A DNA stretch of 35,688 nucleotides from NCBI GenBank assembly GCA_003225455.1, contig QIAB01000038.1, positions 2,473-38,160 on the forward strand. Reading direction: 5' to 3'. Under the pieces are notes generated by a model. The model was not told the origin of the DNA and did not search any database. It saw nothing but the letters and a program-made list of their open reading frames with translations. Positions within the stretch are counted from its first letter, which is position 1. Each line of letters opens with the position of its first letter. Made by a program: the position numbers and the translations under genes. The DNA is from Acidobacteriota bacterium (GTDB taxonomy: Bacteria > Acidobacteriota > Terriglobia > Terriglobales > Acidobacteriaceae). Below are positions 1 to 33,051 of this stretch, piece after piece.

Positions 1-49
1 TTTTGAGATGCGCACGCTTTTGCCGGAAGCCGAGGTTAAAGCCGAATGA
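1..49 (+). CDS. actC: C-terminal end of actC (NrfD-like subunit of alternative complex III), partial
   Basis: Only the last 15 codons are inside the window, reading FEMRTLLPEAEVKAE before a TGA at 47-49. The stop overlaps the ATG of actD at 46-48 (ATGA overlap), so the two genes are translationally coupled. The tail alone does not identify the protein. The name is inferred from the fixed gene order of alternative complex III clusters, in which ActC, the large NrfD-like quinol-binding membrane subunit, precedes ActD. Confidence 0.6.
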   Translation, partial: FEMRTLLPEAEVKAE

Positions 50-582
50 AGCGCACTCAGATTTATGGAATGATGGCGGAGTTCGACACGCCGGATTCGA
101 TTGTGCACGCGGCGCGACTCACCCATGCGGCGGGCTATCGGAGAATCGACGCCTACAGCCCGTTTCCGATTGAGGCGCTGGCTGAGGCGATGGACTTTCA
201 TGCGAGCGGCGTGCCACTCGTAGTTTTAATTGGAGGAATTCTCGGCGGCCTTTCTGGATTCTTCTTGCAATACTGGATTCACGTCATCCATTACCCGATC
301 AACGTCGGCGGGCGGCCGCTGAATTCGTGGCCGGCATTCATCGTGGTCACGTTTGAGATGACAATTCTGTTTGCCGGCATTTTTGCGGTGTTCGGCATGT
401 TGGCCCTGAACGGTCTGCCCATGCCTTATCATCCCGTGTTCAACGTGCCGCGATTTGCGTTTGCCACAAAAGACAGATTCTTTCTCATCATTTTTTCTTC
501 AGATCCGAAATATGATCCGGCGGAAACACGCAGATTTCTCGAGGGAATGAATCCGCGCTCGATTGCGGAGGTGCCGAGTTGA
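46..582 (+). CDS. actD: Alternative complex III subunit ActD (DUF3341 family)
   Basis: This 178-residue protein opens with the short soluble segment usual for DUF3341 (IYGMMAEFDTPDSIVHAAR, then GYRRIDAYSPFPIEAL). Two membrane helices follow at about residues 57-77 and 96-122, then a short hydrophilic tail. ActD is a membrane subunit of alternative complex III, the quinol oxidoreductase that replaces the bc1 complex and passes electrons to cytochrome c or directly to an oxidase. The gene overlaps actC by 4 bp and runs straight into actE. The length and the helix-loop-helix layout fit the family. Confidence 0.93.
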   Translation: MKRTQIYGMMAEFDTPDSIVHAARLTHAAGYRRIDAYSPFPIEALAEAMDFHASGVPLVVLIGGILGGLSGFFLQYWIHVIHYPINVGGRPLNSWPAFIVVTFEMTILFAGIFAVFGMLALNGLPMPYHPVFNVPRFAFATKDRFFLIIFSSDPKYDPAETRRFLEGMNPRSIAEVPS

Positions 583-3130: not shown

Positions 3131-3207
3131 CCAAAACCGGACCTGATGAGAGTTTTCCGCAACGTCTGAGCATGCCCTTCGGGGCACAGACCAATGGGGA
3201 ATTAGAT

Positions 3208-4053
3208 TTGCAACGATTATTTGTCAATTCGATTTCCGCAATTGTGCTGATCCTCTGCACAACTCTGTCAGGGTTCGGCCAACGGATGACGCAGGGCGTG
3301 CTTTCTCCTCCCGCGAACGTTCGTCCGCCGGGATTGAAGAACGTCGGTATCGAGCAGCGCTTGAACGAGCAGATTCCACCGCAACTGGTTTTTCGTGACG
3401 AGGCTGGGACGCCCGTCCGCCTTGCCGATTACTTTGGCAGAAGGCCAATGATCCTGAATCTGGTCTACTACCAGTGCCCAATGCTTTGTGGCGAAGTGCT
3501 CAGCGGACTGGAGAGCGCGCTGCGAGTAATGAAATTCAACGTCGGCAAAGAATTCGACGTGCTGACAATCAGCTTTGACCCGCGCGAAACCCCGGAGATG
3601 GCCGCCAAAAAGAAAGCGGAATTCCTAAAACGCTATCGTCGTCCTGACGCCGATCAAGGCTGGCATTTTCTCACTGGGCCGAAGGAATCGATTGGTGCGC
3701 TGACAAAAGCCGCCGGATTTCAGTACGAGTACATCGACAAGACCGGCCAGTTTGCGCACGCGACGGCCATTCTGGTGCTCACGCCAGGAGGCAAGATTTC
3801 GCAATACTACTATGGAGTGGAATTTGCAGCGAAAGACTTGCGGCTCGGGTTGATTCAAGCTTCCGGAAACAAAATTGGCACAGTGGTGGATCAGGTTTTG
3901 CTGTACTGCTATCACTATGATCCCGCGACGGGGGAGTATGGAGCGATTGTCAGCCGTATTCTGCAATTAGCAGGTGCGGTGACAATCATCATTATGGGAG
4001 TGTTTCTGACAGTAATGATCCGGGTGGGATCTAACCGGCAGTTACCAGGGTAG
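3208..4053 (+). CDS. SCO1/SenC-family copper chaperone for cytochrome oxidase
   Basis: With a TTG start at 3208 the protein has 281 residues and an N-terminal export signal (FVNSISAIVLILCTTLSGFG). It has a thioredoxin-like SCO fold with the copper-binding CPMLC pair (Cys 90 and 94), the conserved distal His in QFAHATA (184), and a C-terminal membrane helix (AGAVTIIIMGVFLTVMI). SCO proteins deliver or reduce copper for the CuA site of oxidase subunit II, and coxB follows directly. The frame is open to an ATG at 3172, but that ATG lies next to repeat DNA and would put 12 polar residues before the signal. The TTG has a GGGGA 7 bp upstream and is preferred. Confidence 0.9.
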   Translation: MQRLFVNSISAIVLILCTTLSGFGQRMTQGVLSPPANVRPPGLKNVGIEQRLNEQIPPQLVFRDEAGTPVRLADYFGRRPMILNLVYYQCPMLCGEVLSGLESALRVMKFNVGKEFDVLTISFDPRETPEMAAKKKAEFLKRYRRPDADQGWHFLTGPKESIGALTKAAGFQYEYIDKTGQFAHATAILVLTPGGKISQYYYGVEFAAKDLRLGLIQASGNKIGTVVDQVLLYCYHYDPATGEYGAIVSRILQLAGAVTIIIMGVFLTVMIRVGSNRQLPG

Positions 4054-4119: not shown

Positions 4120-4674
4120 ATGTTCGACAATTTTCCATTATGGCCAGTGCGGGCATCGACCACGGCGGGCAGCGTCGACGCGCTTTACATTTTTCTGGTG
4201 GCGCTCTCACTGTTCATGAGTGTGGGCATTTTCACGATGATCTGCATCTTCGCGCTGCGCTACCGGCGGCGCAAGGGGCTTGAAGCTGAACAGATCGAAG
4301 GCTCAACGCTTTTGGAGCTTACCTGGTCGGCGATTCCGTTAGTAATCTTTCTGTTCATTTTTGCCTGGGGGGCGGTGATTTATTTCAAAGAGCGCACAGC
4401 GCCGCGGGGAGCGACGCAAATCTACGTCGTTGCCAAGCAATGGATGTGGAAGCTGCAGCACGAAGAAGGCCAGCGTGAGATCAACGAGCTGCACGTGCCT
4501 GTGGGACGCGACGTCGAGATGATCATGACATCGCAGGATGTGATTCACAGCTTTTACGTTCCGGCATTTCGGATCAAACAGGATGTGCTGCCTGGCCGCT
4601 ACACGACCCTGTGGTTTCGTCCGACGCGTTCCGGCACGTATCAACTGTTCTGCGCCGAGTACTGTGGAACCTAG
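4120..4674 (+). CDS. coxB: Cytochrome c oxidase subunit II (CoxB/CtaC), 5' part up to the in-frame TAG
   Basis: This 184-residue piece contains the two membrane helices of subunit II (about 21-46 and 68-88) and most of the CuA cupredoxin domain: KQWMWKLQH, first CuA ligand His143 (DVIHSFYVPAF), then FCAEYCGT with Cys178, Glu180 and Cys182. The frame then meets TAG at 4672-4674 (codon 185). The sequence continues without a shift as [13 protein letters not shown], which is the rest of the CuA motif (Cys-x3-His-x2-Met). The intact gene would span 4120-5115 and encode 331 residues. As written, this product lacks the His and Met ligands and could not hold a CuA centre. Start: ATG with a poor ribosome site just after the 4053-4093 hairpins. 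Confidence 0.9.
   Translation: MFDNFPLWPVRASTTAGSVDALYIFLVALSLFMSVGIFTMICIFALRYRRRKGLEAEQIEGSTLLELTWSAIPLVIFLFIFAWGAVIYFKERTAPRGATQIYVVAKQWMWKLQHEEGQREINELHVPVGRDVEMIMTSQDVIHSFYVPAFRIKQDVLPGRYTTLWFRPTRSGTYQLFCAEYCGT
4672..4674 (+). other. In-frame amber codon within the CuA motif of coxB
   Basis: TAG replaces a normally variable residue between CGT and HSGM, so a one-base change from CAG, GAG, AAG or TCG would explain it. TAG serves as the ordinary stop elsewhere in the window (actF, sco1, coxA, coxD, the YdiJ-like gene, sppA, fabG and others), so wholesale reassignment of TAG is excluded. The following codons are CAT TCC GGC. No stem-loop is obvious immediately downstream. Confidence 0.9.
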
Positions 4675-4683
4675 CATTCCGGC

Positions 4684-5115
4684 ATGATCGGCCAGATTGT
4701 TGTGTTGGAGCCGGCGCAATATGAATCCTGGTTGAGTGGGGGATTGGCATCAGGATCGCTGGCCTCGAGCGGACAAAGTATTTTTCAGCAGCTTGGCTGC
4801 GCAACCTGCCATCGCTCGGATACGCAGGGGCGCGGACCGAATCTGATTGGCTTATTTGGGAAGCCGGTCCAACTGGAAGACGGGCGCGCTGTGACGGCAG
4901 ACGAGAATTACATTCGCGAATCGATTTTGAATCCGTCGGCAAAAATCGTCTCCGGATTTAAACCGATCATGCCGGTCTTCCAAGGATTGGTGAGCGAAGA
5001 GCAATTGAATGCTTTGATTGCGTACATCAAGTCCCTGAACCAGCCGCCGGCGGGAGCGGCCGGAACTCCGTCCCTGATTTCGCCGGGCACAAAACCGCAG
5101 CAGTCGAAGGAATAG
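4684..5115 (+). CDS. coxB: CoxB 3' part: end of CuA motif plus fused cytochrome c domain
   Basis: This is in the same frame as 4120-4674 and directly continues it. The nominal start ATG is the CuA Met ligand itself (189 in whole-protein numbering), so it is probably not a real start. After a short linker comes a class I cytochrome c domain with CATCH (227-231), [11 protein letters not shown], and a probable axial Met in [10 protein letters not shown] (284). This is the caa3 arrangement, in which subunit II brings its own heme c. No ribosome site precedes the ATG. Independent reinitiation would give a cytosolic fragment without a signal, so function requires readthrough or an intact codon. It ends 2 bp before coxA. 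Confidence 0.85.
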
Positions 5116-5117
5116 TT

Positions 5118-6752
5118 ATGGCAACCGCCGCATTCAGCCACGAGCGCGAGCACTATCTGAACAAGGAATACGGAATCCGCTCCTGGCTGCTCACCACCGA
5201 TCACAAACGCATCGCGCTGCTGTACCTGGTCTCAATTACGTTCTTCTTTTTTATCGGAGGCTTTCTCGCGCTGCTCATCCGGCTGGAGCTGCTCACTCCG
5301 GCCGGCGATCTGGTTCAGGCAGATACCTACAACAAGCTGTTCACTATGCACGGCCAGATCATGATTTTCTTTTTCCTAATCCCCTCGATTCCGGCCGTGC
5401 TGGGGAATTTTTTAGTTCCGTTGATGATCGGAGCCAAGGATCTGGCGTTCCCGCGTATCAATTTGCTCAGCTGGTACCTGTACATGTGCGGCGGCATTCT
5501 GATGTTGCACACGCTGCTGACCGGCGGCGTCGATACCGGCTGGACATTCTATACGCCTTTCAGTACTGCTTTTAGCGATACCAAGGTGATTGAAGCCGGC
5601 GTGGCCATTTTCATAAACGGCTTCTCCTCGATTCTCACGGGACTGAATTTCGTAGTCACCATCCACCGCATGCGCGCGCCCGGGATGACCTTCTCGCGGC
5701 TACCGCTGTTTCTGTGGTCGCATTACGCCACTAGCATCATCTTTCTGCTGGGAACGCCGGTGTTGGCCATCACGCTGCTGCTGGTGGTTTTCGAGCGCGC
5801 TTTCAATCTGGGAATTTTTGATCCCAATCGTGGCGGCGATCCGCTGCTATTTCAGCATCTGTTCTGGTTCTATTCGCATCCTGCGGTTTACATCATGATC
5901 CTGCCGTCGATGGGGGTGGTAAGCGAGATCGTTCCCTGTTTCTCCCGCAAGCGGATTTTTGGTTACAGCTTTGTGGCCATGGCGAGCATTGGTATTGCGG
6001 TGATCGGATTTCTGGTCTGGGCGCACCACATGTTTGTCGCAGGAATGTCGCTGTACGCTGCGTTGATTTTTTCGTTCCTGAGTTATCTGGTCGCGGTCCC
6101 CTCGGCAATCAAAGTTTTCAATTGGACCGCCACCATGTACAAAGGCTCAATTTCGTTCTCCACGCCCATGCTGTATGCGTTCGGCTTCATCGGATTATTC
6201 ACGATGGGAGGACTGACTGGCCTGTTTCTGGCAGCGTTGGGTGTTGATGTCCACGTCACCGATACCTATTTCGTGATCGCCCACTTCCACTACATCATGG
6301 TGGGTGGCGCAGTGATGGGATATCTGGGTGGAATGCATTTCTGGTGGCCAAAAATTTCTGGCCGCATGTATCCGGAGGGGTGGGGACGCCTGGCCGCGCT
6401 GATTGTGTTTATTGGATTCAATCTCACATTCTTCCCACAATTCATTCTTGGTTATCTCGGGATGCCGCGCAGATATTGGCAGTATCCGCCGGAGTTCCAG
6501 GTGCTGAACGTGCTCTCGACCGCCGGTTCCACCATTCTTGCCGTCGGATATTTGCTGCCGATGGTTTACTTCCTCTGGTCAATGCGCTACGGCAAGATTG
6601 CCGATGATAATCCGTGGAACGCTACCGGATTGGAGTGGCGGACTGCTTCTCCTCCCCCGACCTACAACTTTGAGGAGACACCGCTAGTCACGTGGGAAGC
6701 TTACGAGTACGACAAAATGACCCTGCCAGCCGAGGTGACGCTTGAGCGATAG
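5118..6752 (+). CDS. coxA: Cytochrome c oxidase subunit I (CoxA), A2-type
   Basis: This 544-residue subunit has about 12 helices and all cofactor ligands. Low-spin heme a is bound by His78 (TMHGQ) and His391. CuB is bound by His254, His303 and His304, and heme a3 by His389 (AHFHYIM). The cross-link tyrosine is Tyr258 in YSHPAVYI. The YSHP sequence at 252-255 stands where A1 oxidases have the proton-channel Glu (GHPE). This places the enzyme in the A2 family with the Rhodothermus and Thermus caa3 oxidases. It is the proton-pumping catalytic subunit reducing O2. It starts 2 bp after the coxB frame ends. Confidence 0.97.
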
Positions 6753-7434
6753 CTCAGTCGCGGTTGAACACACTCCCGAACTGCGGCACCACTTTGCCGA
6801 CATGGAGCAGCAACGCAACGCCGCTTCCCTCGGCATGTGGTTATTCCTGGGAACGGAGATCATGTTTTTTGGTGGGATGTTTTGCGCCTACCTGATCTAC
6901 CGGTTGGCTTACTACAACGAATTCGCGGTGGCGAGCCGAACGTTGAGCCTTCCGATTGGAACCATAAACACTGCTGTACTGATCTGCAGCAGCTTGACTG
7001 TTGCGCTCTCGGTGCGCGCGGCGCAGTTGGGAAAACAAAAATTGGTCATTGTGCTACTGGTTTTGACCCTGCTATTCGGTCTCGCGTTTCTAGGTATCAA
7101 GGGCTACGAGTGGCGCGAAAAATTTGTGGAGCATCACATACCAGGATCGTCATTCAGTTTCGACGAGGCCATGCCGGGGCATCCGGAAGCCAAGATCGAT
7201 CCCCGGCACGCGCAGATTTTCTTCTCGCTCTATTTTGCGATGACGGGCATGCACGCGCTGCACATGATTATCGGGGTCGGGATTTTCGCCGTGCTGATTC
7301 TTATGGCGTGGCGCGGCCGCTTCACGCCGGAGTATCACACGCCGGTTGAGATTGGCGGATTGTATTGGCACTTCGTGGATATCGTGTGGATTTATCTTTT
7401 CCCGTTGCTGTACTTGATTGACAGGCATAAGTGA
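6742..7434 (+). CDS. coxC: Cytochrome c oxidase subunit III (CoxC)
   Basis: This 230-residue heme-copper oxidase subunit III has five membrane helices. Family hallmarks are [22 protein letters not shown], the [11 protein letters not shown] helix, and the C-terminal [14 protein letters not shown] plus [20 protein letters not shown]. The chosen start is TTG 6742, inside the coxA end (11-bp overlap), because GAGGTG lies about 4 bp upstream. The first internal ATG would remove the N-terminal 20 residues without improving the fit. Confidence 0.95.
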
Positions 7435-7474
7435 ACACAGAGGAACGAATCAACAGGAAACGAAAGAGCTGAAC

Positions 7475-7762
7475 ATGGCTGAGCACATTCTTTCCAGCAA
7501 GTTGTATTGGGCGATCTGGGCCATTCTGATCTGTCTGACGGTGGTGACGGCTTTAGTCGCACGGGTTGATCTGGGATGGTTCAATCCAGTCGCGGCGCTC
7601 CTGATCGCCACCGGCAAGGCAACGATCGTTGTGCTTTTCTTCATGCACGTAAAGTACACCAGCGAGAAGCTCACCACGATGGTGATCGTCTCTGCGCTTT
7701 TCTGGCTACTGATTCTGCTTGCTCTCAGTCTCGCGGATTACTCGACCCGCCCGATAAGCTAG
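7475..7762 (+). CDS. coxD: Cytochrome c oxidase subunit IV-type small membrane protein (CoxD)
   Basis: From ATG 7475 this is 95 residues with three helices. It has the pattern of prokaryotic subunit IV: a short polar head (MAEHILSSKLYWAIWAIL), then FNPVAALLIATGKATIVVLFFMHVKYTSEKLT, then a last hydrophobic helix. The frame is open to 7418, inside coxC, but the ATG at 7475 gives the family-length protein. It is the last gene of the oxidase cluster, and a dispersed repeat follows within 15 bp. Confidence 0.9.
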   Translation: MAEHILSSKLYWAIWAILICLTVVTALVARVDLGWFNPVAALLIATGKATIVVLFFMHVKYTSEKLTTMVIVSALFWLLILLALSLADYSTRPIS

Positions 7763-32808: not shown

Positions 32809-33051
32809 GATCTGCCCGCGGCCGCTTGTGGTTTGCTGACGATGCCCCGAGGGTTTATCAGCGTCAGGGCGAGTCCGAATTCGTGACTCGTGTAGATGCG
32901 GATCCTGAGCAGCAGGTTTGTCACGAAAGGTAAAAACGAAGCGGGAAATCTAATTTATTCGAATGAAAAAATCGAGTTAAAGAGTTTCAATTCTTCGGCT
33001 CAAAAATATCTTTCAGCCTCGAACTGATTGGGTACTCGGAGACTCGCCAGG

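Follow-up and report, generated by a model that had tools for sequence, protein, structure and literature searches.

The A2 caa3 oxidase of the Acidobacteria follows an alternative complex III, and its gene order is given in PMC8407424. In-frame stop codons in bacterial genes are described in PMC7918605 as widespread and short-lived, with a TAG/CAG case shown, and the same account expects artefacts to make up a substantial share of the raw in-frame-stop cases. The DNA analyzed here (the window, meaning the whole stretch of 35,688 nucleotides, which contains no N) lies on contig C26 of a 4.99 Mb draft assembly (195 contigs, 95.05% complete, 4.51% contaminated), and its top named matches are metagenome genomes of the Terriglobales and Terriglobia. 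Like the A2-type caa3 haem-copper oxidase as set out in PMC8407424, the oxidase of the window has a subunit II with a CuA site and a fused cytochrome c, ActD upstream and coxA, coxC and coxD downstream; unlike it, the coxB gene of the window is interrupted in the CuA loop by a single in-frame TAG. Assignment to the A2 type is based on the gene order and the fusion rather than on a tree. A cytochrome c gene as well as actD is located upstream of coxB, and the features of the region are as follows.

46..582, + strand: actD (alternative complex III subunit), upstream neighbour (Pfam ActD)
3172..4053, + strand: SCO1/SenC-type gene (sco1), open (Pfam)
4120..5115, + strand: coxB, caa3-type oxidase subunit II fused to cytochrome c, interrupted by TAG (frame and Pfam)
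4642..4644, + strand: codon 175 of coxB, CAA (Gln); His in the other 97 aligned sequences (alignment of 98 sequences)
4672..4674, + strand: in-frame TAG, codon 185, a variable position between Cys182 and His186 (frame; sense in 109 orthologous loci)
4684..5115, + strand: open frame from the CuA Met (codon 189), with the cytochrome c domain and the CATCH haem motif (frame and Pfam)
5118..6752, + strand: coxA, open (Pfam)
6742..7434, + strand: coxC, open (Pfam)
7418..7762, + strand: coxD (subunit IV), open (Pfam)

The coxB frame starts with an ATG at 4120 and ends with a TAG at 5113-5115, and reading-frame analysis of the window identified codon 185 (TAG, 4672-4674) as its sole interruption. The stop is flanked by FCAEYCGT-stop-HSGM, and Cys182 and His186 on its two sides correspond to CuA ligands of the family. 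A caa3-type oxidase subunit II would be expected in one uninterrupted frame, which coxB does not have because of the TAG at codon 185. The read-through protein matches the Pfam families COX2_TM, COX2 and Cytochrom_C, with a COX2 match (residues 122-189) that spans codon 185. If codon 185 is read through, the membrane part, the CuA domain and the CuA motif CxExCGxxHSxM are all present, and the fused cytochrome c carries a CXXCH-type haem motif, CATCH, in translation. Homology on both sides of the TAG rules out a chance open reading frame pattern. The original prediction placed the stop at exactly this codon, within a frame that is otherwise open through the cytochrome c domain, and frame reading and Pfam confirm both; the ATG at 4684, named there as the Met of the CuA motif, is codon 189, and sco1, coxA, coxC and coxD, described there as intact, are all open frames with matches to their own Pfam families. 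The position of the TAG within the CuA loop, noticed post hoc, is a single draw from all stop-prone codons of coxB.

The comparison with relatives was based on 113 loci aligned across codon 185. Removal of the window itself and of three COX2 paralogue rows from the same genome (without cytochrome c, two of the rows being one gene) left 109 orthologous loci, or 101 once eight duplicates are dropped. Codon 185 is a sense codon in all 109 (Gln 61, Met 15, Ser 7, Asn 7, Glu 5, Ala 5, Asp 4, Lys 3, Leu 2), and these nine residue types agree with the earlier description of the position as variable. Glutamine is encoded by CAG in 49 loci and by CAA in 12. The stop is thus absent in relatives and one base away from the commonest codon, CAG, as for a sporadic nonsense change, and a TAG position kept in 0 of the 109 loci does not match a conserved programmed readthrough. 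A screening of 396 genomes of the phylum recovered the CuA motif with a TAG only in the window's own genome and in none of the other 395, none of which belongs to the same genus. The simplest history would be a change from an ancestral CAG to TAG, with the proviso that the nearest relative, L008, has ATG at codon 185.

Comparison of the window with L008 gave similar constraint on the two sides of the stop: nonsynonymous differences make up a proportion of 0.095 before the TAG and 0.091 beyond it, and synonymous differences, which are near saturation, 0.70 and 0.83. Among the columns where the ten nearest relatives agree, the window is changed once before the TAG (H175Q) and never after it. Equal constraint on either side fits a stop that is either very recent or unreal, and the 3' side of coxB has encoded working protein for nearly all of the history of the lineage. 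The constraint after the TAG also fits readthrough but does not favor it, the measured constraint being mostly older than the stop.

The genome was then considered for a system that decodes TAG. Release factor 1 is intact (contig C54), and TAG terminates 102 of the 324 called genes in 436 kb of the genome (with the interrupted coxB counted in), which bears out the earlier view of TAG as an ordinary stop here. A backup stop within 10 codons downstream was found for 25 out of 102 TAG, 36 out of 139 TGA and 9 out of 83 TAA stops, so that backup stops follow TAG no more often than TGA, but more often than TAA. A PylS profile search of the genome, which is 95% complete, gave two matches, at 22.8 and 20 bits, where the cut-off is 178. 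The suggested scan for a tRNA with a CUA anticodon was carried out as far as the tRNA set reaches: none of the 43 tRNAs found among the 150 of 170 candidates scored has a CTA anticodon, and none is labelled Tyr or Ile, which means that some tRNAs were missed and the set is incomplete. A tRNA-Gln with a CTG anticodon is present. A pattern search for CTA anticodon arms returned 66 places, compared with 260 for the reversed control; 32 of the 66 were retrieved and inspected, 12 of them picked by eye for a G preceding the T loop, and neither ARAGORN nor a looser arm test, judged by eye, recognized a CTA tRNA among the 32. One of the inspected places is a tRNA-Glu. Two others were rejected as tRNAs: L164, where the arm is unpaired and no tRNA gene is predicted, and L169 (around position 32949 of the window), which passes the loose arm test and by eye has no tRNA shape. 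The genome contains a tRNA-Sec (C132) with the anticodon TCA, not the CUA that a UAG-selenocysteine would need. Allo-tRNAs with diverse anticodons have been reported from Acidobacteria (PMC7609411), and for this reason the remaining matches to the tRNA-Sec model were inspected; all 12 are below the cut-off (150 of 614 candidates scored). For a stimulating RNA structure 3' of the TAG, the one stretch of 129 bases that was folded has a z score of -0.28, and 65 of 200 shuffled sequences fold equally well. As a separate observation on the tRNA genes, the 3' part of the tRNA-Arg(TCT) gene on C114 (C114:32152-32179) repeats about 1.4 kb from the whole gene (C114:33511-33584) with one difference in the compared stretch, which resembles the scar that a small integrated element leaves at its att site.

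The window and 20 further stretches of this genome (435,688 bases) were scanned for other interrupted genes. Conserved frames were found to hold at least two more single in-frame stops, one TAG and one TGA. The TAG lies at L203:16996 in a DUF6632 gene (L203:16834-17211, - strand, contig C174), where TGG (Trp) is found in all 17 covering homologues out of 18 other matches; two of the 17 are copies in the same genome, an uninterrupted one nearby on the same contig (C174:57530) and another on C153. The TGA lies at L200:8777 in an ArsP_1 permease gene (L200:8324-9412, contig C84), with Gly and Ser in the only two homologues that cover the position. A TGA was also found at L197:9373 within the VxHGPT motif of a formate dehydrogenase-type gene (L197:8800-11934, contig C79); it is expected to encode selenocysteine, and its recovery demonstrates that the first scan was able to detect real recoding. 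There is no N within 500 bases of any of these three stops. The additional TAG at a Trp codon and the TGA in ArsP_1 indicate that the in-frame stops are specific neither to TAG nor to one residue. The coding-score scans separated interrupted genes poorly at about 56% G+C: the second one missed coxB itself (right flank 2.0 vs a threshold of 4), and a later filter that retained 87 of 272 candidates dropped it too. The DUF6632 and ArsP_1 genes were chosen by eye from the scan lists before being tested with Pfam and homologues, and the number of in-frame stops is therefore a lower bound and gives no rate. For ten operon genes, the 739 copies in relatives contain 12 stops. Eleven of them are close to the ends of the query, within its initial 24 or final 4 residues, and the single clear internal stop is a TAA in a conserved stretch of coxD of L008 (L008:6361-6363), at a position that is Tyr in the window. 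Overall, isolated in-frame stops are found in these draft genomes; they are of several types and, counted per gene, infrequent.

The quality of the assembly was also considered. Residues that are present only in the window at otherwise invariant columns number one in coxA, one in coxB, none in coxC and none in sco1, compared with means of 0.32, 0.24, 0.21 and 0.16, respectively, for the other sequences. This is not clearly an excess, and a generally poor consensus is therefore not demonstrated. The coxA case is W192F, which needs two base changes. The coxB case is H175Q, the only such residue in the alignment of 98 sequences, and its location ten codons upstream of the TAG is a weak hint of a local problem. 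Elsewhere in the assembly, the gene for release factor 2 is split by a run of 32 N (L182, about 1836-1867, contig C132). The 739 gene copies of the relatives contain 12 frameshift-like breaks, five of them in the FAD/FeS gene downstream of coxD; these breaks were rejected as an error rate, given that four of the five are N scaffold gaps (L050, L047, L039 and L043). The fifth, in L012, has no N.

The data are very probably explained by a sporadic one-base nonsense change, either a mutation or a consensus error, in an otherwise normal caa3 coxB gene, with no system for decoding TAG. The tolerant and usually Gln-encoding codon 185 would have been altered, most simply from CAG to TAG. If the change is real, it would be very recent and would leave a truncated subunit II that has neither a complete CuA site nor the cytochrome c domain, presumably with loss of subunit II function, and the strain would rely on its other oxidases. 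Alternatively, a wrong consensus base would have entered the draft assembly; the two possibilities are about equally likely. The loss of the caa3 oxidase could be survivable because the genome contains two other oxidase operons (C32 and C81) with COX1, COX2 and two COX3 genes. The COX2 proteins of these operons have no cytochrome c domain, so that the second intact coxB considered in the original prediction was found only in the form of two other COX2 operons and not as a second fused gene. Several observations count against a sporadic change: the undecayed remainder of coxB is also expected under continued readthrough, one clear internal stop in 739 gene copies of relatives shows that such stops are uncommon per gene, window-only residues at invariant columns are not clearly in excess, and the tRNA set is incomplete.

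The same observations have to be weighed against readings in which the TAG is real and used. Functional readthrough by ordinary near-cognate tRNAs, with the TAG fixed, little full-length subunit II and a lower caa3 output, would be served by a codon that tolerates at least nine residues, by the tRNA-Gln (CTG) and by the full constraint on coxB beyond the TAG, and PMC7918605 makes the case that bacteria often read through in-frame stops. It is nevertheless unlikely, given that no relative has the stop (109 loci and 395 other genomes of the phylum), that the constraint is mostly older than the stop, that the RNA after the TAG folds in an ordinary way and that the same assembly contains stops of other kinds, one of them at an invariant Trp. 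A related reading, in which inefficient readthrough at a tolerant position of the CuA loop acts as a translational dimmer on caa3 assembly, is quite unlikely, and the regulated readthrough listed in the original prediction has no positive evidence.

Dedicated decoding of the amber codon, whether by a suppressor tRNA, pyrrolysine, UAG-selenocysteine or an allo-tRNA with a CUA anticodon, is very unlikely. Two TAG-interrupted conserved frames in 436 kb, the allo-tRNAs known from the phylum (PMC7609411) and the tRNAs missed in a set without Tyr and Ile speak for it; against it stand the intact release factor 1, PylS matches far below the cut-off, no CTA anticodon in the tRNAs and pattern places covered, the TCA anticodon of the tRNA-Sec with only sub-cut-off matches besides, the regular use of TAG as a terminator, and the different residues that the two TAGs replace (Gln-type in coxB, Trp in DUF6632). 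A split gene, encoding a truncated subunit II and a free cytochrome c initiated at the ATG at 4684, is barely credible even though the downstream piece matches Cytochrom_C on its own: the cut would part Cys182 from His186 and Met189, the piece would start within the cupredoxin domain, where a signal is not expected, no well-placed ribosome-binding site was seen by eye before 4684, and no such split at codon 185 occurs in the 109 orthologous loci. Of the four options offered in the original prediction, a sequencing or assembly error and a recent nonsense mutation fit all findings and are retained in the preferred reading of a sporadic nonsense change, whereas an amber suppressor and regulated readthrough are left without support, the former within the limits of an incomplete tRNA set.

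Compared with programmed recoding by selenocysteine or pyrrolysine, the stop in the window is similarly placed inside a conserved domain, and the genome does contain a selenocysteine-type TGA and a tRNA-Sec; unlike programmed recoding, the TAG is accompanied by no PylS above the cut-off and no CTA tRNA among those found, and it is not conserved. If readthrough were true, coxB would represent a natural example of stop-codon control of a respiratory metal site. The preferred reading calls instead for caution, since draft genomes contain sporadic in-frame stops, and such a stop can mimic recoding when it happens to hit a well-known metal-binding motif. Unlike the cases in PMC7918605, for which the stop was required in orthologues of at least two species, the stop in the window is present in one draft genome. 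Like them, it is a single TAG where the relatives mostly have CAG and constraint persists 3' of it, and it is thus of a kind that is already known and fits the picture drawn in PMC7918605.
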